Virus record (IMG/VR): IMGVR_UViG_3300035180_002574 | Location: 117,178 to 181,177 of that record | Length of the DNA: 64,000 nucleotides | Strand: one strand, 5' to 3' | Source: a virus | In this document: positions 13,957 through 60,770 of the stretch, one piece after another | How the letters are laid out: the number at the start of each line of letters is the position of its first letter | Numbering within the stretch: the stretch's first letter is position 1 | Notes under the pieces: model-generated | What the model saw: only the letters and a program-made list of their open reading frames with translations | Databases searched by the model: none | Told to the model about the DNA's origin: nothing | Position numbers and translations under genes: made by a program

Positions 13957-14273
13957 GTATTACTTCCATAAATCTTGAATGATTTTGCCTGAATTTGAAC
14001 GTAAGGCTCATCAATATCAATATTCTTTTTCCCATCTAATTCATATACCAAGGTTCTATAATTTGGCAGCTTGGTTGAAGGATAAACTCCTATGATCCTA
14101 AGTAGATTTTTGTGTACAAAATTATGATGATTAGGGCACAAAATACATAAATTTAGATTATCATTAGATGTGTTTGGATCTGTTCTTGGAATAATGTGAT
14201 GAAGGTGTAAGCATTCGGTTATAACGCAATCATCAATTTCACATTTATTAAGAATCAACTTTATTCTTTTCAA
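13953..14273 (-). CDS. HNH endonuclease
   Basis: The 106-residue protein has CLHLHHIIPR (21-30) and CILCPNHHNFVH (43-54), the His-His and Cys-x2-Cys/His-His pair of a zinc-stabilised HNH nuclease, with Asn39/Asn41 between them. Translation begins with TTG at 14273, supported by AAGGA five bases upstream; no in-frame ATG is available. The start overlaps the end of the 14248-14784 gene by 26 nt in another frame. Likely a free-standing homing-type or packaging-associated HNH nuclease; the cluster of HNH remnants beside it favours mobile origin. Confidence 0.8.
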   Translation of the reverse strand: MKRIKLILNKCEIDDCVITECLHLHHIIPRTDPNTSNDNLNLCILCPNHHNFVHKNLLRIIGVYPSTKLPNYRTLVYELDGKKNIDIDEPYVQIQAKSFKIYGSNT

Positions 14274-14784
14274 TTAGGTCCTTATATAGATCTATAATTT
14301 TTTCTGCCCATTTTATCTTATCTTGAACTCTCTGTCCAGATGGCTGATTTACCGACCACAACTCTAAGTTATCAATATTATTGTTTAATCTGTTGCCATC
14401 TTTATGATGAACATTTTCATTATCCAATAAGTCCCTACCTATATGCCTTGACATTACCAGTCTGTGCTCAGGTATGTATCCGATTCCATTGGAATTGTTA
14501 TGTTCTGGAGCGTATACTAATTTATAACCACCCTTAGTTATTTGTGGTTTTCTTTCTTTGATTGGTAGGCTAGACGCTCCATATTTTTTAAACCTTAAAT
14601 AATGTTTGGCGCAAAATCCTCTTGCCTCATGAGTTTTATTGCAACCTTCAACACTACATAGACCAGTTTCACTTCTGCCAATTAATAGTTTATATGGATC
14701 GTTATATTTTAATTTCCTACGATAATGCTTATTGCATAGATCTAATCTATATCTAATATTAGAACAATTATCAATAATGCACAT
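14248..14784 (-). CDS. HNH endonuclease with zinc-finger repeats (downstream half of a fused tandem gene)
   Basis: The 178-residue frame has two Cys/His zinc-finger-like units (CxxxxC...C.KHY at about 2-21 and 43-62) and an HNH core: PEHRLVMSRH (105-114) then VHHKDGNRLNNNIDNLELW (125-143). The ATG at 14784 has no ribosome-binding site. The same reading frame continues upstream through a single TAA (14857-14859) into a second, homologous finger-HNH unit (see 14857-15120), so this is probably the 3' half of a once longer two-repeat protein. It may still be made by re-initiation. Nuclease fold certain, expression uncertain. Confidence 0.75.
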   Translation of the reverse strand: MCIIDNCSNIRYRLDLCNKHYRRKLKYNDPYKLLIGRSETGLCSVEGCNKTHEARGFCAKHYLRFKKYGASSLPIKERKPQITKGGYKLVYAPEHNNSNGIGYIPEHRLVMSRHIGRDLLDNENVHHKDGNRLNNNIDNLELWSVNQPSGQRVQDKIKWAEKIIDLYKDLIEKNKVDS

Positions 14785-15677: not shown

Positions 15678-16538
15678 TTACTTATATTGAGCACATGCAG
15701 CATCATAGCCTAATGATATCATGCGCAGAATATTTGCGTTGTCAAAATTTAAAGAATCACTAACTAAATCTTCTGTAGGTCTTATTACTTTTATATTAAC
15801 AGCCCTTTTATCGGGACATGCTCCAAGTAAAACCAGTTTATTATACATGTCAGCTATTTTTAAATCGTCAGTATTTATTTGATCTGTCATTAGATCAACG
15901 GTTCTTAACCCTAATGTTATTGTTTTGGAGGAGTCATCATATTTTGAGGTAGTTGATTCTGGACTGCACATAATTACATCAATATCGGTGGCTCCAAAAT
16001 CAATTGCTGATTTCAATGGCGTAATGTGCTTGACTCCGCCATCTGTCCACAATTGATTATCAATCTTAATAGGTTTCAACCCACCCGGAAATGCGGATGA
16101 TGCTAATACACCATCAACAAAAGAATCGTCATCTGGAGTAAATACTCTATATTCGCCCGTATCTAATGAGACGGCTCCCACAGAGATTTTTCTACCAGAA
16201 GATCTAATCTTGTCCAACTCTATTTGTTTATGTATTAAATCAATAAGTGGTTGACTGTTATATAGGCTTTTTTCCCACAAAGCATGTAACCTGCCAAATG
16301 GAAACCAACGCTTCCACACCTTATCATTATTTACAGTAATCCAAAATTCTTGTAATTTCTGAACTGCGATTTTTTCTTCAGACTTTGAATACATTGATAA
16401 GAATGAAGTATTTAATGCTCCTACAGAAACGCCACAAATAATATCATATGATAAACCGCGGTCATTAACCAAATGATTTAAGGCTCCAACCTGAAAGGCT
16501 CCTTTACATCCACCGCCTGATAAAACTAATGCTCTCAT
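15678..16538 (-). CDS. patatin-like phospholipase
   Basis: The 286-residue protein starts at ATG 16538 (GGAG upstream; an in-frame TTG 12 nt earlier is less likely). It opens MRALVLSGGGCKGAFQVGAL with the oxyanion loop GGGCKGAF (8-15). GVSVG (36-40) follows with nucleophile Ser38, then DGG with Asp166 as dyad partner. This is the complete Ser-Asp patatin dyad of bacterial lipid acyl hydrolases. There is no signal peptide, so it acts in the cytoplasm or as a virion-borne enzyme. It lies between two tail-type genes. It could hydrolyse membrane lipids during entry or lysis; the substrate is not known. Confidence 0.9.
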   Translation of the reverse strand: MRALVLSGGGCKGAFQVGALNHLVNDRGLSYDIICGVSVGALNTSFLSMYSKSEEKIAVQKLQEFWITVNNDKVWKRWFPFGRLHALWEKSLYNSQPLIDLIHKQIELDKIRSSGRKISVGAVSLDTGEYRVFTPDDDSFVDGVLASSAFPGGLKPIKIDNQLWTDGGVKHITPLKSAIDFGATDIDVIMCSPESTTSKYDDSSKTITLGLRTVDLMTDQINTDDLKIADMYNKLVLLGACPDKRAVNIKVIRPTEDLVSDSLNFDNANILRMISLGYDAACAQYK

Positions 16539-16555
16539 ATGTTTCTCCAATGATT

Positions 16556-29804: not shown

Positions 29805-31025
29805 ATGTCGTCTATTCACATATCAAACGAAAAAATTAACCATTATGCAATTGATATTTGTTCCATTCTGCAAAAACACGGATACCAAGCCTATATTGTG
29901 GGAGGATGTGTTCGAGATTTGATCTTAGGCAAGCAACCTAAAGATTGGGACATTTGTACCGATGCAAAACCAGAAAAAGTGATGGAATTATTTCCTAAAC
30001 ATTATCCCACTGGTCTTAAACATGGCACTATAACTGTCGCCATGGCAGAAGGCGTTGAAAACAACTTTGAAGTTACTACTTTTAGAGTAGAGGGTAAATA
30101 TACTGATGGTAGAAGACCAGAAGAAGTTTCATTTGTCAGTAATGTTATTGAAGATTTAGCCAGAAGAGATCTAACCATTAACGCAATGGCATATGATCCT
30201 CTAGCTAAGATAATTCTAGATCCATTTTACGGTCAGCAAGATATAAAATGGGGATTTATTCAAGCGGTAGGTAATGCCAATGATAGATTCCAAGAAGATG
30301 GGCTAAGAATTATGCGCGCAGCGAGGTTTGCTGCTCGATTTGAATACATAATCGAATCAAAAACATTCGAAGCCATGTGCAATAACCTACCAACATTGGC
30401 AAAAGTCTCTGTTGAACGTATTAAAGATGAACTTTGTAAAACTTTAATGACCAACAATCCATACTTAGGAATAAAATATCTACAAGATTGTGGCGCTTTA
30501 CAACAAATCTGTCCAGAAATTACTCTTACTGAAGCTTTAGAGAAGTGTAAGGGCGGCTTAGAAACTAAAATTGCTTGTCTTTTCACTCATACAACCTTTA
30601 CCATCGCTGAACGGGCAATGATATCCCTTAAATTTTCCAATAATGAAATCAAAAAAGTTAAATTATTATTGCAACTTTTTGAATGGACAAGTGCCGACTG
30701 GAGCACCACAAAAGTTTATCGTAAATTTATGGCGTTTCTTAAGAATCAGGCACAGGAAGACTGGCAAGACATCTTAAGAGAATTTATACATTTGTCTGAG
30801 GCGTTTGGAAGGGACGTTAAAACGACCCTTGAGGCATGCAAAAACGAAATTGTCTGGGCTCGCAAAGAAATGGCAATCAATGGCGATGATTTGATTGAAC
30901 TTGGAATTAAACCAGGACCGGAATTGAAAAAACTTTTGGATAGATGTTATGAAGAAATTCTAGAGCATCCTGAAAAGAACACTCTAGAACATCTTTCAAC
31001 AATTGTTAAGACAATCTCTTTATAA
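29805..31025 (+). CDS. cca: CCA-adding enzyme (tRNA nucleotidyltransferase)
   Basis: The 406-residue class II nucleotidyltransferase adds or repairs the 3' CCA of tRNA from CTP and ATP. GGCVRD (33-38) and DWDI with Asp47/Asp49 (47-50) give the palm and metal-binding carboxylates. RRDLTINAMAYD (120-131) is the nucleotide-recognition region, and EDGLRIMRAARFAARF (164-179) the basic neck. Length and the helical C-terminal body match bacterial enzymes. It is on the plus strand, opposite to its neighbours, with its own promoter. Its end overlaps the stop of an opposing broken gene by 20 nt. It may keep host or phage tRNAs functional; the symbol is assigned by family. Confidence 0.93.
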   Translation: MSSIHISNEKINHYAIDICSILQKHGYQAYIVGGCVRDLILGKQPKDWDICTDAKPEKVMELFPKHYPTGLKHGTITVAMAEGVENNFEVTTFRVEGKYTDGRRPEEVSFVSNVIEDLARRDLTINAMAYDPLAKIILDPFYGQQDIKWGFIQAVGNANDRFQEDGLRIMRAARFAARFEYIIESKTFEAMCNNLPTLAKVSVERIKDELCKTLMTNNPYLGIKYLQDCGALQQICPEITLTEALEKCKGGLETKIACLFTHTTFTIAERAMISLKFSNNEIKKVKLLLQLFEWTSADWSTTKVYRKFMAFLKNQAQEDWQDILREFIHLSEAFGRDVKTTLEACKNEIVWARKEMAINGDDLIELGIKPGPELKKLLDRCYEEILEHPEKNTLEHLSTIVKTISL

Positions 31026-40209: not shown

Positions 40210-40992
40210 TTAGTTATTTAATGCATCTAATCTCTGGTACCTAAGCATTCTCAAACCATGCTTGTTACAATAACGAATTCCATTAACTATTTTGTACTTC
40301 GCTTTTCCATGAACATCGCAATTTGGAGCTTCGCATTTTCTAGAATAATCTATACGATCTTCCCATGCCTTCTTGGCTTGCTCCGACTTCTTTTGCTTCG
40401 TTTCTTCGGAATCCTTTATTCCAATATGAGCCTCCGAAAATCTTTTTCTCACTTCTTCCGTATAAATAGCAGCATTATCTTTTGATTTTTGGATGGCACT
40501 CATTTTAGCTTTTTGCTCTTCAGTTCTTTTGGTTCCTTGAGCTGGATGACCTTTGTCAGCAATTTGTTTAAGAGTGGCTTGAGATAAATCTTCTGATCTT
40601 TTGGCTTTTTCTTCCGGAGTTAAAGAAGCATGCCAATCACTTAGTTTTTTCTTCCACTCCTCAGTTTTTGGTGCGTTCATGCCACCATGAGTTGCATTAT
40701 AACCATTATTTGAGATAAAACTGTCATATTGTGCAATTAATAGGGTTTCTAATTCGTTAGCATTATCTTGCCCTTTACATGTGGCAATTACTTCAAATTC
40801 GAAATTTTGGGCGCCATATTTTTTTATGGCGAAATGAAATGGAACTTTGGGATTTATCGAATCATTTCTATGTTGCCACCAACGAGCAGAAGGCTTAACG
40901 GTTTGCCCAATATAAACTTTATTATTTACAAGGCACCTCACACAATAAATGTAAATAATTCGATCGCTTTCATATGTAATGTCGTTTGTCAT
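40210..40992 (-). CDS. GIY-YIG homing-type endonuclease
   Basis: The 260-residue protein has an N-terminal GIY-YIG-type core: IYIYCVRCLVNNKVYIGQT with the conserved Tyr, Gly-Gln and an Arg in SARWWQHR, then KKYGAQNFEFEVI and ELETLLIAQYDS (Glu-based catalytic helix). A helical DNA-binding linker with NUMOD-like repeats (EEWKKKLSDWHASL, EEQKAKMSAIQKSK) follows, and a zinc-finger-like end CEAPNCDVHG...CNKHG. I start it at the ATG at 40992 because GGAGG lies 6 nt before it. It lies alone between two structural genes, typical of an invasive free-standing endonuclease. Confidence 0.88.
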   Translation of the reverse strand: MTNDITYESDRIIYIYCVRCLVNNKVYIGQTVKPSARWWQHRNDSINPKVPFHFAIKKYGAQNFEFEVIATCKGQDNANELETLLIAQYDSFISNNGYNATHGGMNAPKTEEWKKKLSDWHASLTPEEKAKRSEDLSQATLKQIADKGHPAQGTKRTEEQKAKMSAIQKSKDNAAIYTEEVRKRFSEAHIGIKDSEETKQKKSEQAKKAWEDRIDYSRKCEAPNCDVHGKAKYKIVNGIRYCNKHGLRMLRYQRLDALNN

Positions 40993-41035
40993 GCCTGACC
41001 TCCAAAACATTATATATCAGCGTATATTCAAATTT

Positions 41036-47662: not shown

Positions 47663-48313
47663 TTATTTTCTCCCGCCCTTTTCATTGACCAAGACATCAT
47701 TAAGCTGATTTTGTCTTTGATTAAAGAGTTCCAATAATAATGGCTTTTTCTTTTCAATTTTAACCTGCAGCTCTTTACTGACTGAATCAACCCAATTTGT
47801 TGCTAAAATATTTGATTGTATGTGATTTTTAATTCTATCATCCAATATTTCAGAGATACTATCACATTGTTTTTGAATATCATCCATCGACTTAGTGACA
47901 TTGCCTATAAAATCTTTTGCCTCTAGATTATCAAATAAATCTACAAATTTATTTACTTTTACTTCCAAATCATTAATTGAAGAAATAAGCGATTTAGTTA
48001 ATTTTATAGTCTGAGTGTCAGATGAAAATAATTGCATTAGATTTACGCATTTAAATGCTAAATGTTTAAATTCATTGAAATTATCTACTGCTTTATCCCT
48101 AAATCTACGAATAGCGACTCTTGCATCCATAACTTCTTTTGGCTTAATATCAGGATTATCTGTAAAAGGAGTCTTCATAATATCTAAATGAAGAGATGCT
48201 CTTTCTAGAGACTTATTTGCGCTATTCAAACACATAATAGCGCGTTCAGCCTGACGTTTTTCTTCGTCAGTCACGCTGTATGTCATTTGAATGGTATAAG
48301 CCCTTTTAATCAT
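47663..48313 (-). CDS. coiled-coil/helical protein of the head module
   Basis: The 216-residue protein is helical throughout. Its early module AERAIMCLNSANKSLERASL resembles AIECLNSAAEILDN of 41791-42852. Later helices FNEFKHLAFKCVNLMQLF and SISEILDDRIKNHIQ continue a rod. It overlaps the phosphatase gene by 8 nt (ATGATTAA) and is coupled to it. No enzymatic motif. Possibly a core or scaffold component. Confidence 0.6.
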   Translation of the reverse strand: MIKRAYTIQMTYSVTDEEKRQAERAIMCLNSANKSLERASLHLDIMKTPFTDNPDIKPKEVMDARVAIRRFRDKAVDNFNEFKHLAFKCVNLMQLFSSDTQTIKLTKSLISSINDLEVKVNKFVDLFDNLEAKDFIGNVTKSMDDIQKQCDSISEILDDRIKNHIQSNILATNWVDSVSKELQVKIEKKKPLLLELFNQRQNQLNDVLVNEKGGRK

Positions 48314-49070
48314 ATATAAACCCGCCTGGATTTAATACCGGACCAAATCCTTGGACTCCAGCATCATTATTATATTGACCAACTGGTGGTATCTTACCAG
48401 CAGTCTCCTCTTTATCATGTTCTTTTATTGACTTATAATTTTGATAATTTTGACGGGTAGGAGATTGATCATTAATAAAATTATCTACAGAATCCATTGG
48501 GTACTGTCTTGTTTCGTCTAGGAATGGCGCAAAAGATCCCTGATGAGCCTCATCCAATATCCCGGTACGATTATCGCTGATGTATTCACGCGTATTTGAA
48601 ACTATATCAGCTGCATTCTCATCTTTCATCGGCTGACATGATTTAATTATTTTTTTGTATAGGTCTACAACTTTAGGATCAACCCCTATACCAAAACCAA
48701 AAGACATAGCTTCTTCAATGGCTGCTTCTGGTTTCATATTCATGTATTTGCATTTATACATTGCAACTACTAATCCAGTTCTATCTTTACCAAATTTACA
48801 ATGTACGAAAGTAGGTCCGCCTTTTATTAATAAATCATGCAAATTCTGATTTAAGAGTTTAAGAATAGATTTCCTATCCATTTCTAACGGAAACATTACG
48901 TGGTCTATCCCCAATAATTTGCAAACTCTATGTATTCTTTCTCCAGCATCTTTATCCAAACTAACAATTTTTTTAATACCCAAACGATCTTTTAACCATT
49001 TCACTTCTTTAGGGCTGGGAGCGGATCCTCGATACAATTTATTATTTACTTTGTCTAGATTCCTAATCAT
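48306..49070 (-). CDS. Cys-based protein phosphatase (dual-specificity/tyrosine type)
   Basis: The 254-residue protein contains HCKFGKDRTG (90-99), the P-loop C-x5-R with nucleophile Cys91 and Arg97, preceded by LYRGSAPSPKEVKWLKDRLGI, typical of small dual-specificity or Siw14-like phosphatases. A Phe and an Asp (PLEMD, 61-65) sit where the general acid is expected. The last ~100 residues are an unrelated Asn/Gln/Asp-rich extension. AGGAG precedes the ATG. It is coupled to the gene after it. Substrate (protein, inositol phosphate or nucleotide) not known. Confidence 0.85.
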   Translation of the reverse strand: MIRNLDKVNNKLYRGSAPSPKEVKWLKDRLGIKKIVSLDKDAGERIHRVCKLLGIDHVMFPLEMDRKSILKLLNQNLHDLLIKGGPTFVHCKFGKDRTGLVVAMYKCKYMNMKPEAAIEEAMSFGFGIGVDPKVVDLYKKIIKSCQPMKDENAADIVSNTREYISDNRTGILDEAHQGSFAPFLDETRQYPMDSVDNFINDQSPTRQNYQNYKSIKEHDKEETAGKIPPVGQYNNDAGVQGFGPVLNPGGFIYD

Positions 49071-54604: not shown

Positions 54605-57508
54605 TTATACCCTACGTTTAATATATCCCGTGATCGCTAGCGGTTTATTTTGATCTTTCAATGATTGCTGAAAGTTTAGAGGATTATTGCTAGTAAACCC
54701 TTTAGTTATGATGAATTTATATGCAATATATGCATTCAATAAAGCCATAAAACCATCGTTAGGGGTGCTTCCTTTGACATAATGAATCGTTGGATCTCCG
54801 CCCCTAGAAATGGAAGGTTTAATTTCCATACTTGCACAATGATCTATTAACCATGCTATTTTTTCATAGTCTCCATACGGAAATCTAATCATACCTTTTT
54901 TCATCTGCTCATATAATTCGCCAATATAATAATCTCTTTCAAAAACCAATTCTTTTGGAAATGAATCAGCAGAGAATTTTACATAACCATTAACTTTAGG
55001 ATGAGCGCGAGAAACTAGATATTTATCTCCATATGAATTATGAAGAATGATAGAGAAATCGTTAGAGTATCCAATATCTCCGATCGCCAGATTTACAGAG
55101 TATTGTCTCATTATTTGGTCAATAACCCCCTTTTTACTTTCTGGGTCATTGCGTTTGAATTTTGTTGCAAACTCAATTGATAATAATCCTGGACCCTTAG
55201 CAACCAATACTACTGCGGTACTGTATGATTGACCGCCTTTAGATTTTTCTGGATCAGCCAATTGTTCTAAATCAGCCCTAGCTCCATAGTCAATTCCAAC
55301 AACAACTATTTGTTCTTCGCCAGGTAAAATCTTAGGTCTAAATTTTCTGCCAAAATCTGCACAAAATTGTCTAATTTCTTCTGGAGTGATCGGGCTAGAA
55401 TCTCCTTGAAAGAACTCTCCTAGAACTTCGTTCTGATAAACTCTTTCAGTATTAACTGGGTGCTTGCCTGGTTTTTCATTCATAATGTCTTCCTTAGTAA
55501 AAAAAGGCATGTATAACTGATTAATATGAAAACCAATCAAATCAGACTCAGATTCTGGTCTTGAAGAAATCCATTTCCCTCTTTCTGCCGCATCTCTTTT
55601 GTCTTGCTGATGATTACAGTGAGTACATTGGACGGTAAATCCAGTAATCCAAATTTTTTCCCAATCATCTGATCCGGGCGTATAAAGTGGGAAATGTTTG
55701 CCACACTTTTCACAACCCAAATAATAATATTGCTGAGTTGACATTGCCCATCTCTTATAAAACCCCGAACCTTTTTTACGAGGAGTTCCAAAGAATACTT
55801 GGATTCCTTTATTACCATATTTGGCAGTGGTTAAAATTTTAAGAGCATTACCAATGGCTTGATCAGATGTTTTTTGAACTTCATCAAAGAAAATTCCATC
55901 AGCAGTATTATGTGTAGCAATATATTTTTTTGTAACTAAAAATAAATGAGAAGGGCTATCTACAGTAATACACCTCATTGGAATTGGATTTATTTTTTTA
56001 ATATCTGTAATGAATCTATGGGTGCTTTTTGTTGAAATATTATTTTTTATTCTATCTAATTTTCTTTTCATGCGAAAAACTGGTAAATTTGTGATAAATC
56101 TAATTCTATATTTATCAGCGTATTTTTTTCCATATCTTTTGCTATCTCTTTTATAAAAATATGCTTTAATACCTAAGCTTAATACTAAGTCATAAACTTG
56201 TTTCGCTAAATCCTCACGTACTTGTACAAATTCTATATTTCCATTTTTATCACAATGCCCGTCAGTATCTAATAAACCTTGTAATAAAGCAAGCCTTTGA
56301 TTAAAGGAACTTTTCATATAAATTTCTGGAATATATTTTTTATATAGATTATGCTCTATATTCTTGCCATTAACCAATAAATTAAGAGATCTTAATTTTG
56401 TAGTTAATCCTTTTATTCTATATGAGCATGATTTTGATGGTATTGAATTAAAATTTCCTATATGATTTATTGAAGATTTAATTACATGATATTCATATCC
56501 ATTAAAAATTTCTGGATCTGCTGACTCAATTCTACCATTGCCATCACCATTTCCTAACCATAATCCAAGTAAATATGGATCTAATAATAAATTTTTATCA
56601 GAATAATTAAGTGGTTTAGTACACAAAATTGAATGATTTGCTTCACCAGATTTTTTTAATGTTTCGAATAATTCTTTAGTATTTTTTACTGTTGGTTTTC
56701 TTTTTTTATTACGATCTGATTTAGTATACGTTAACCATAAATGATCTGCGCAAGCATCTATTGTCGTATCATCATCAAAAGTAATTTTATATGATTCGGG
56801 ATTAAAATCTATAGGATGTAATTTAGTAACAGTGCAAATATTTCCATTTTCATCAAATAGTTGATCTCCTTCTTTTAACTCTTTTAATTTGACGAATCCA
56901 TTTATTGTAGGAATATCAGTCTCAAGAGATAGCATTCGCCCCATGATACGGTCAGCATCAAGCCCAGTAGATTCAATCCATAAATGGTTTCCTCCAATGA
57001 ATTGTTTAAAATGCAACGAATCATTTGTAGTAGTAGATTGATCTAACAATGTTTGCATAAATGTTTTTGGTTTGGCGCCCTTTTTATCAGTATCTGAATT
57101 GATTGCTACAGATGAATTAATCATTTGATTAAGCTTAGTTTTTGAATAAGCAGCAGCCAATTCCAATTGAGGAAATGTATGAATAATACGAATGGGCGGT
57201 TTATCGCCAACTCCAAAAAGACCTGAACCCATGAAATACATCTCAAGAACGCTTGCCATAGTGGTTGCTCCCACCTGACGTCCTTTAACGATGATTATGG
57301 GCTTAGAATTTGGCTCTAAAGCTTTAATACCAATGTAACGATAAATGTCTGCAAATGGTCGATAACCATTTCCATGTAAACGAAATGGCTTGCCATCTAA
57401 TGTTAGATATTTCTCAGCGAAGCTGACTGGGTCCAAGGACAATAATTGTTGTTTTAGTTTTTCAAATAAATCTTTATCGGTTGCTGCCGACGAATTTATA
57501 GTTGGCAT
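54605..57508 (-). CDS. terL: terminase large subunit, containing an in-frame intein
   Basis: The 967-residue precursor, 624 residues without the intein, is the packaging motor. The ATPase domain has a Walker-A-like GRQVGATT (76-83) and Walker B GIFFDEVQ (538-545), with Asp542/Glu543 as catalytic acids. A zinc ribbon follows, Cys599-x2-Cys602 and Cys628-x2-Cys631. The C-terminal nuclease has GIDYG (Asp740), AIGDIGYSND (Asp811) and PNDGF (Asp918), an RNase H-type metal set. Residues 192-534 are an intein inserted between the signal DRIMGR and Walker B. GGAGC precedes the ATG. Without splicing, the ATPase would be disrupted. Confidence 0.93.
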   Translation of the reverse strand: MPTINSSAATDKDLFEKLKQQLLSLDPVSFAEKYLTLDGKPFRLHGNGYRPFADIYRYIGIKALEPNSKPIIIVKGRQVGATTMASVLEMYFMGSGLFGVGDKPPIRIIHTFPQLELAAAYSKTKLNQMINSSVAINSDTDKKGAKPKTFMQTLLDQSTTTNDSLHFKQFIGGNHLWIESTGLDADRIMGRMLSLETDIPTINGFVKLKELKEGDQLFDENGNICTVTKLHPIDFNPESYKITFDDDTTIDACADHLWLTYTKSDRNKKRKPTVKNTKELFETLKKSGEANHSILCTKPLNYSDKNLLLDPYLLGLWLGNGDGNGRIESADPEIFNGYEYHVIKSSINHIGNFNSIPSKSCSYRIKGLTTKLRSLNLLVNGKNIEHNLYKKYIPEIYMKSSFNQRLALLQGLLDTDGHCDKNGNIEFVQVREDLAKQVYDLVLSLGIKAYFYKRDSKRYGKKYADKYRIRFITNLPVFRMKRKLDRIKNNISTKSTHRFITDIKKINPIPMRCITVDSPSHLFLVTKKYIATHNTADGIFFDEVQKTSDQAIGNALKILTTAKYGNKGIQVFFGTPRKKGSGFYKRWAMSTQQYYYLGCEKCGKHFPLYTPGSDDWEKIWITGFTVQCTHCNHQQDKRDAAERGKWISSRPESESDLIGFHINQLYMPFFTKEDIMNEKPGKHPVNTERVYQNEVLGEFFQGDSSPITPEEIRQFCADFGRKFRPKILPGEEQIVVVGIDYGARADLEQLADPEKSKGGQSYSTAVVLVAKGPGLLSIEFATKFKRNDPESKKGVIDQIMRQYSVNLAIGDIGYSNDFSIILHNSYGDKYLVSRAHPKVNGYVKFSADSFPKELVFERDYYIGELYEQMKKGMIRFPYGDYEKIAWLIDHCASMEIKPSISRGGDPTIHYVKGSTPNDGFMALLNAYIAYKFIITKGFTSNNPLNFQQSLKDQNKPLAITGYIKRRV
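55907..56935 (-). mobile_element. class 3-type intein with LAGLIDADG endonuclease domain in terL
   Basis: A 343-residue intein from Met192 to Asn534. Block A is MLSLETDIPT. Block B is CADHLW with His256 and Trp258 two residues later. Block F is RCITVDSPSHLFL with Cys513. Block G is IATHN followed by Thr+1. Trp, Cys513 and Thr532 are where a class 3 intein has its WCT triplet, and such inteins lack the Cys/Ser at position 1, as here. The middle has LLGLWLGNGDGN (313-324) and LLQGLLDTDGH (408-418), the paired LAGLIDADG motifs of a homing endonuclease. Insertion is just before Walker B, a usual terminase site. Confidence 0.85.
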
Positions 57509-59167: not shown

Positions 59168-60010
59168 TTAATACGACATATTATCGTAAATAGTGGTTCC
59201 TGATTCGGATTTTCCATATGGATTATCCGTTACTCTATCTAATCCATCTTCTCTAGCATCCATGCCTTCAAGACCATCAGGAAGTCCGTAAAAAGGCTCT
59301 TCTCCATAATTTAGATATTTTTCCAATAAAGACTGTAAGTAATCATGCATATCTTCTTTATTTTCAAAAGAATAATCTCTGCCATAATTTAACTCGGAAG
59401 GTAATTTACCTTCCTCATCTGGTCCAGGAAGATATTCATCTAAATTGCCGCCAATCTGAGCAGCTCCAGATACAGAAGAATCATCTTCTTTTATCATACC
59501 AGAATTTATCTGGTCATCAATTGGGAAATCTATATTATTTACATCTGAACAATTATAGCACGAATCAACTTCAATGGTTTTCTTTGGACCGGGGCATCTG
59601 CATGTTGTTATTTTTCCGCAGTTCTTACAATGTTTATTAAAATGTTCTCCAGCTGTTTTAACTAATCCAGTTAGTATTTCCATTCTTGCTTTAATTTTCT
59701 TTTGAGATTTGGTTAAAGAACCATCATCTTGAATCCAAGAATCATCTGCTTTATATTTATCCTTTAATTTTTTACGCCTATCTTTTAAGAAATCAGATAT
59801 GCTCTTATAATTTTGCATAGAATGCCAGCCCGCTCCTGGTCCATGTTTTGGATGGTCGGTTATACCTGGCGCATTATATAAGTCATAATTTCTATATAAA
59901 GGCTCTTCAAAACGAGGCTGTACTACAATAGCAGGCTCCGCTTTGTATTTTCTTTTTCCTGGAGTTGGCTCTTCTGTTCCTTGAAAATATCCTTTTTTAT
60001 TTGGCAACAT
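59168..60010 (-). CDS. protein with QGTEEPTPG module and zinc-binding motif, unknown
   Basis: The 280-residue protein begins MLPNKKGYFQGTEEPTPGK, closely matching modules in the maturation protease (43818-47381). A Cys cluster (HFNKHCKNCGKITTCRCPG near 123-141, with SCYNCSDV near 151) looks like a zinc site. The rest is low-complexity and acidic. Its ATG overlaps the upstream nucleotidyltransferase gene by 14 nt, with a strong AAAGGGG inside it. It is probably part of the packaged or assembling head; the link to the protease is the main clue. Confidence 0.6.
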   Translation of the reverse strand: MLPNKKGYFQGTEEPTPGKRKYKAEPAIVVQPRFEEPLYRNYDLYNAPGITDHPKHGPGAGWHSMQNYKSISDFLKDRRKKLKDKYKADDSWIQDDGSLTKSQKKIKARMEILTGLVKTAGEHFNKHCKNCGKITTCRCPGPKKTIEVDSCYNCSDVNNIDFPIDDQINSGMIKEDDSSVSGAAQIGGNLDEYLPGPDEEGKLPSELNYGRDYSFENKEDMHDYLQSLLEKYLNYGEEPFYGLPDGLEGMDAREDGLDRVTDNPYGKSESGTTIYDNMSY

Positions 60011-60770
60011 TAATGTTCCCCTTTACATGTTTAGCATAATATGGTCTCATTGGCTCTGTAATTGGAACATAATTCCATAAACCCATTTGTGTTAATAAAT
60101 AACTTGCTTTATCAGCATCTTTTGCAAATGCTTCATTTAATTTTTCCGCAAGTGACTTCTCAGAAGATATTTTGATAGAGTCAGGATTTTTTTTAACAAA
60201 TTCAATGATGGGTTTATCAACATCAAAATCTAACTTAGCTGCGAGATAAATTGCTCTCACCACTCTATTTTTATTTGATGTCAATGTTATTTCTGGAGCT
60301 AAACAAGTTTTTATTTTCTTTTCTTTTAGATCAGCAAATGCTCTTCCTGTAGGATCATATACCGTTTTCAAATCAAAATCTAACAATAAAGCATTGCAAG
60401 TAAAATCTCTGCTGAATATTTCTTTTTTTATGTCCGATGGATTTTTAATGCCCATTTTTGCAAGAATTTGCTCTATGTTTGGTACAATAAAATTGGATGA
60501 AAAATCCAACTTAAATTGACCTATATAAATAGAGCTATGACCGTCTGACATTGTTTTTCTAACTATATTATATTCCCTTTTGAATTTTTCAGCAAATTCT
60601 TGTGAAAGATAATCTATAGTATTATCACCGGTGGTGATGTCCAAATCTGATAGATCTTTTAATCTATCCAAATACCTATCTCTGGGCGTACCTCCGCAAA
60701 TATACGGCTTAGAAGAGCCAATACTTTGTTGAACTTCCAATATTTGTTGCAGCAATTCGCGAAGTTTCAT
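59997..60770 (-). CDS. CCA/poly(A)-polymerase-type nucleotidyltransferase, single head domain
   Basis: The 257-residue protein has GGTPRD (26-31), SDLDIT (41-46) with Asp42/Asp44, a third acid near Asp89 (QFKLDFS), and RDFTCNALLLD (121-131). These are the order and spacing of class II CCA-adding enzymes and poly(A) polymerases. It also has FADLKEKKIKTCLAP (145-159) and a neck-like NKNRVVRAIYLAAKLDF. The C-terminal body is far shorter than in the complete CCA gene at 29805, so substrate handling may differ. AAGGGAT precedes the ATG. It is embedded in a head/packaging operon, an odd place for a tRNA enzyme. Confidence 0.82.
   Translation of the reverse strand: MKLRELLQQILEVQQSIGSSKPYICGGTPRDRYLDRLKDLSDLDITTGDNTIDYLSQEFAEKFKREYNIVRKTMSDGHSSIYIGQFKLDFSSNFIVPNIEQILAKMGIKNPSDIKKEIFSRDFTCNALLLDFDLKTVYDPTGRAFADLKEKKIKTCLAPEITLTSNKNRVVRAIYLAAKLDFDVDKPIIEFVKKNPDSIKISSEKSLAEKLNEAFAKDADKASYLLTQMGLWNYVPITEPMRPYYAKHVKGNINVAK

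Follow-up and report, generated by a model that had tools for sequence, protein, structure and literature searches.

An insert with class 3 intein features in a phage terminase gene

The terL gene of a large tailed phage very probably carries a class 3 intein, itself interrupted by a LAGLIDADG homing endonuclease, just before the Walker B motif of the encoded large terminase subunit (TerL). The DNA analysed, which we call the window, is the final 64 kb (64,000 nucleotides) of a 181-kb IMG/VR virus record. Its terL gene adjoins the portal protein gene, and TerL matches PF05876 (GpA_ATPase) with a value of 1.8e-11, the best stretch being residues 535–646. The predicted splicing would leave 624 amino acids. 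Relatives of terL are ~68–83% identical over the extein. The features, numbered along the window, are as follows.

54605–57508, minus strand: terL, GpA-type terminase large subunit (967-aa ORF with the intein; PF05876 match)
56936–57508, minus strand: N-extein, residues 1–191, ending ...DADRIMGR (empty-site relatives)
55907–56935, minus strand: predicted class 3 intein of 343 aa (Met1 to Asn343; TerL residues 192–534; intein-free relatives and family alignment)
54605–55906, minus strand: C-extein, starting TADGIFFDEVQ with Walker B (empty-site relatives)
56933–56935, minus strand: Met192, the non-nucleophilic A:1 (empty sites; Met in 8 of 108 relatives)
56735–56743, minus strand: His256 (B:10), Leu257 and Trp258 (B:12, the W of WCT); H and W in 108 of 108
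56549–56551, minus strand: Asn320 in LAGLIDADG motif 1 (LWLGNG), in place of the catalytic Asp (family and PI-SceI alignment)
56261–56263, minus strand: Asp416, the catalytic Asp of LAGLIDADG motif 2 (LLDTDG), intact (alignment; PF14528 match)
55970–55972, minus strand: Cys513 (F:4, the C of WCT), predicted nucleophile and branch point (C in 108 of 108; 6rix/6bs8 alignment)
55907–55915, minus strand: Thr532 (G:5, the T of WCT), His533 and the C-terminal Asn534, predicted to cyclise (T in 108, H in 107 and N in 108 of 108)

The original prediction placed the insertion immediately ahead of the terminase Walker B (TADGIFFDE) and took Met192 as position 1, and both placements held up when intein-free relatives were compared. 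In these relatives, with extein identity of up to 83%, the sequence ...DADRIMGR^TADxxFFDEVQ (^ marks the junction here and below) runs unbroken in the protein and in the flanking DNA. The uninterrupted GR^TAD establishes Met192 as position 1, Asn534 as the last intein residue and Thr535 as +1. A shift of the N-terminal junction by one residue is ruled out by the same contiguous sites.

Residues characteristic of class 3 inteins

We based the class assignment on published descriptions of class 3 inteins (PMC7664689, PMC7891396, PMC3196547), in which the combination of Trp at B:12, Cys at F:4 and Thr at G:5 (WCT) is class 3-specific (PMC7664689). Block A of the insert opens MLSLETDIPT, so that A:1 is Met rather than Cys, Ser or Thr. 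Block B, TTIDACADHLWLT, contains Cys253, His256 and Trp258; block F, PMRCITVDSPSHLFLV, contains Cys513, which aligns with the VRC Cys of 6rix and 6bs8; and block G reads YIATHN^T, with Thr532, His533 and Asn534 followed by the +1 residue Thr535. As had been proposed, Trp258, Cys513 and Thr532 occupy exactly the class 3 positions B:12, F:4 and G:5.

Searches with the intein as query found 20 IMG/VR loci, 698 phage records contained a match, and a profile gathered 108 full-length relatives from IMG/VR, phage records and genomes; these matches are far beyond chance. None of the 108 aligned inteins deviates at Trp B:12, Cys F:4, Thr G:5, His B:10 or the C-terminal Asn. A broader set of 223 inteins, which had been chosen beforehand by the HxW pattern, had the Cys in 223 members and the Thr in 220.

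Two residues previously regarded as odd are in fact common states, as the family counts demonstrate. Position 1 in the 108 relatives is Ala (57), Gln (18), Leu (9), Met (8), Arg (6), Gly (5), Pro (4) or Asp (1), a freedom expected if A:1 is chemically idle. Further inteins with Met1 occur at the GR^T site (L084/L076 and L115) and at other sites (L095, L096, L122, L133 and L137); we found no in vitro test of a Met1 class 3 intein in the literature examined. Cys253 lies at B:7, where the same alignment has Asp in 55 and Cys in 37 members, followed by Gly, Ser and others.

In a profile search, the class 3 DnaB inteins 6rix, 6riy and 6bs8 ranked first among solved sequences, with E values of 7e-27 to 7e-26 as against 3e-10 for PI-SceI. 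An AlphaFold2 model of the intein (pLDDT 90.2, pTM 0.89) was compared with solved structures by Foldseek. The splicing domain alone was matched by 6riy, 6rix and 6bs8 (target TM 0.80–0.88, six of the seven chains listed), and PI-SceI matched over the full length of the model (query TM ~0.7); by model and comparison, the intein has the HINT fold. From the alignment to 6rix we infer that Cys513 lies beside the N-scissile bond in three dimensions. The lack of a nucleophile at A:1, the WCT residues, His B:10, the HN end, the +1 Thr, the profile match and the homology to phage TerL inteins with demonstrated splicing, taken together, support the class 3 assignment. Judged by these features, the insert appears to be a genuine class 3 intein, cleanly inserted and ordinary in kind.

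A catalytic Asp of the endonuclease is replaced by Asn

The intein matches the LAGLIDADG_3 domain (PF14528) with an E value of 5e-11, exceeding the gathering score. Of the 1701 class 3 inteins that had been listed in nr up to 2020, 82.5% have LAGLIDADG motifs (PMC7891396). The LAGLIDADG pair of the window intein had been described as intact, which is correct for motif 2 (LLDTDG, with Asp416) and wrong for motif 1, because Asn320 stands where 98 of 105 relatives and PI-SceI have Asp. Motif 1 reads LGLWLGNGDGN, most relatives have LWLGDG, and PI-SceI has LLGLWIGDG in the same columns, with the Asp of GDG in the column of Asn320. The remaining relatives have Asn (6 of 105) or Ser (1 of 105). An active double-strand LAGLIDADG endonuclease is expected to have Asp or Glu in both motifs. 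As one of the two catalytic acids is Asn, double-strand cleavage by the window intein endonuclease is probably weakened or lost. A simple assembly error at Asn320 is unlikely, since a second IMG/VR contig, which may share a sample series with the window record, is identical over 6901 bp. Our literature search found no report of the loss of a LAGLIDADG catalytic Asp.

We scanned viral sequences with a back-translated pattern for LWLGNG and obtained 80 stretches, 69 of them distinct (loci L198–L277). These are mostly class 3 by context, and motif 2 retains its Asp in 51 of the 54 that were readable. Since this sample was selected for Asn, the true frequency of the substitution is to be read from the family alignment (6 of 105). 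The motif 1 Asn could reflect repeated decay of the endonuclease, or else a form that is tolerated and perhaps nicks DNA. That the Asn is a tolerated state in which the enzyme nicks one strand, enough for homing, is a possible but rather unlikely reading, and one that concerns the endonuclease part only. It is favoured by the number of distinct viral inteins with LWLGNG, 69 or more, and by the retention of the motif 2 Asp, which among aligned inteins is found in 52 of 55 members with Asn in motif 1 (N-type) as against 159 of 164 with Asp (D-type). Moreover, the intein tree has eight pure N clades, some of which are only ~47–50% identical internally and yet keep motif 2 in all members. On the other hand, the 55 N-type members need ~34 changes between Asn and Asp, and 28 of them, the window intein included, are singletons on the tree, a pattern that also fits recurrent recent loss. 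In PI-SceI, substitution of either catalytic Asp impairs cleavage, which likewise argues against a functional nicking state. The stronger proposal, that the recurring Asn, combined with a conserved motif 2, is the sign of a naturally nicking or otherwise asymmetric endonuclease still mobilising phage class 3 inteins, that of the window among them, strikes us as improbable. The substitution could nevertheless make nicking by intein endonucleases testable, and it is the sole point of some independent interest in the window intein.

Predicted splicing pathway and its alternatives

In the pathway that we propose, Cys513, helped by His256 and Thr532, would attack the Arg191–Met192 bond to form the branched thioester of class 3 splicing, with Met192 chemically uninvolved. 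The N-extein would then be transferred to Thr535, cyclisation of Asn534 would release the intein, and an O-to-N shift would yield a continuous TerL. The endonuclease would have spread the element, or would still spread it, to related terL genes in which the GR^TAD site is empty. The window intein is most likely active in splicing, a reading supported by its intact catalytic residues, the intact host ORF and the essential nature of the host gene.

A decayed class 3 intein that has lost splicing, a pseudo-intein like Arth_1007, is very unlikely. Such a non-splicing class 3 pseudogene has been described (PMC3196547), and the missing Asp of endonuclease motif 1 would be in keeping with decay. However, Arth_1007 has lost Cys F:4 and His B:10, whereas the window intein keeps all of its splicing residues; the host ORF is open through all 967 codons, and the second contig carries the same sequence. 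Packaging cannot proceed without TerL, so that a failure to splice would be expected to be lethal. Class 2 chemistry, with a direct attack of the +1 residue on the N-junction and an incidental Cys F:4, is scarcely credible: a non-nucleophilic position 1 is common to class 2 and class 3 (PMC7664689), but class 2 inteins lack WCT, which is present here, and have been reported in KlbA genes only (PMC3196547), and Cys F:4 is invariant in the 108 relatives despite their differing exteins. Equally far-fetched is a class 1 intein whose junction has been misplaced by one residue, for which we found no support and which is refuted by the empty GR^TAD sites and by the flanking residues Arg191 and Leu193, neither of them Cys, Ser or Thr.

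Relation to characterised inteins

The structurally solved class 3 DnaB inteins MchDnaB1 (6RIX/6RIY) and M. smegmatis DnaBi1 (6BS8) share with the window intein the WCT residues, His B:10, the HN end, a start of the form xLaLxTpLPTP and a position 1 without a nucleophile. Unlike these two mini-inteins, which interrupt DnaB and have Ala1 and Asp B:7, the window intein includes an endonuclease and has Met at position 1 and Cys at B:7. PI-SceI (the VMA1 intein) has the same two-domain arrangement of splicing and LAGLIDADG parts, but uses class 1 chemistry (Cys1) and has both catalytic Asp residues.

Phage terminases and DnaB are well-documented hosts of class 3 inteins, and splicing has been demonstrated for several of these, among them the terminase inteins of mycobacteriophages Bethlehem (gp10, TerL1-c) and Gaia (gp2, TerL1-e), which spliced in the MIG assay (PMC5050341). 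Both resemble the window intein in being class 3 inteins in the ATPase domain of a phage terminase, but they reside in a different TerL family and are ~28–32% identical to it. The TerL inteins of Gaia and of Violet, a phage that we assume to be Bethlehem-like, can be aligned with the window intein and begin with Ala1 and Pro1, respectively; their insertion sites, FIILNE^SHH in Gaia and SQDQ^TKN in Violet, differ from GR^T. With GR^T, located ahead of Walker B in the GpA-type TerL of large phages, the class 3 phage inteins gain one more terminase insertion site; as to splicing, the window intein offers nothing new.

The nearest counterparts are inteins that share the GR^T site in GpA-type terL genes of IMG/VR phage contigs (L084, L086, L093, L085, L087, L088, L094, L115, L117, L119 and L120). 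They are ~50–66% identical to the window intein and all have WCT; they differ from it in having mostly Gln1 and, in nearly all cases, the motif 1 Asp (Ser in L084).

Composition and distribution

The intein has a GC content of 25.9%, as against 35.6–37.3% in the exteins, and a GC3 of 0.12, as against 0.25–0.28; most inteins at the GR^T site are likewise AT-richer than their host genes. A tree of 70 distinct exteins, 12 of them with the insert, requires at least 5–6 gains or losses. This AT-richness and the patchy spread among related terL genes are as expected for a mobile element. Other genes, too, carry close relatives of the intein, inserted after GK in what look like P-loops (L090/L091, L092, L121 and L122). 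A search of genome contigs found only three relatives, all distant, so that in the collections searched the group is mainly viral. We looked for other copies of the intein in the 181-kb record and found none.

Related terL genes showed further arrangements. The gene in L076/L084 (a 1337-aa frame) has two inteins ~9 extein residues apart, a class 3 intein at GR^T and a class 1-like intein, starting CFPYQQ, at the Walker B site DE^C; L073/L074 have an insert at the second site (DE^C) only. Both endonuclease motifs of the L084/L076 class 3 intein are altered (LGSG and LLDSSG). In L065 (frame from 4974, plus strand), Walker A is interrupted by a short class 3-like intein that lacks endonuclease motifs and begins with Asp (GRQVGK^DLAID...THN^TTLLS).

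Other genes in the window

Free-standing GIY-YIG and HNH_3 endonuclease genes lie in the structural gene region (40210–41010 and 14248–14784, respectively, both minus strand). Two different genes, at 29805–31025 (plus strand) and 59997–60770 (minus strand), have tRNA nucleotidyltransferase/PolyA_pol matches, the second being short and divergent. A patatin-like phospholipase gene (15678–16550, minus strand; PF01734, 6e-29) is situated amid structural genes, and a protein with a tyrosine/dual-specificity phosphatase domain is encoded amid head-region genes (48306–49070, minus strand).
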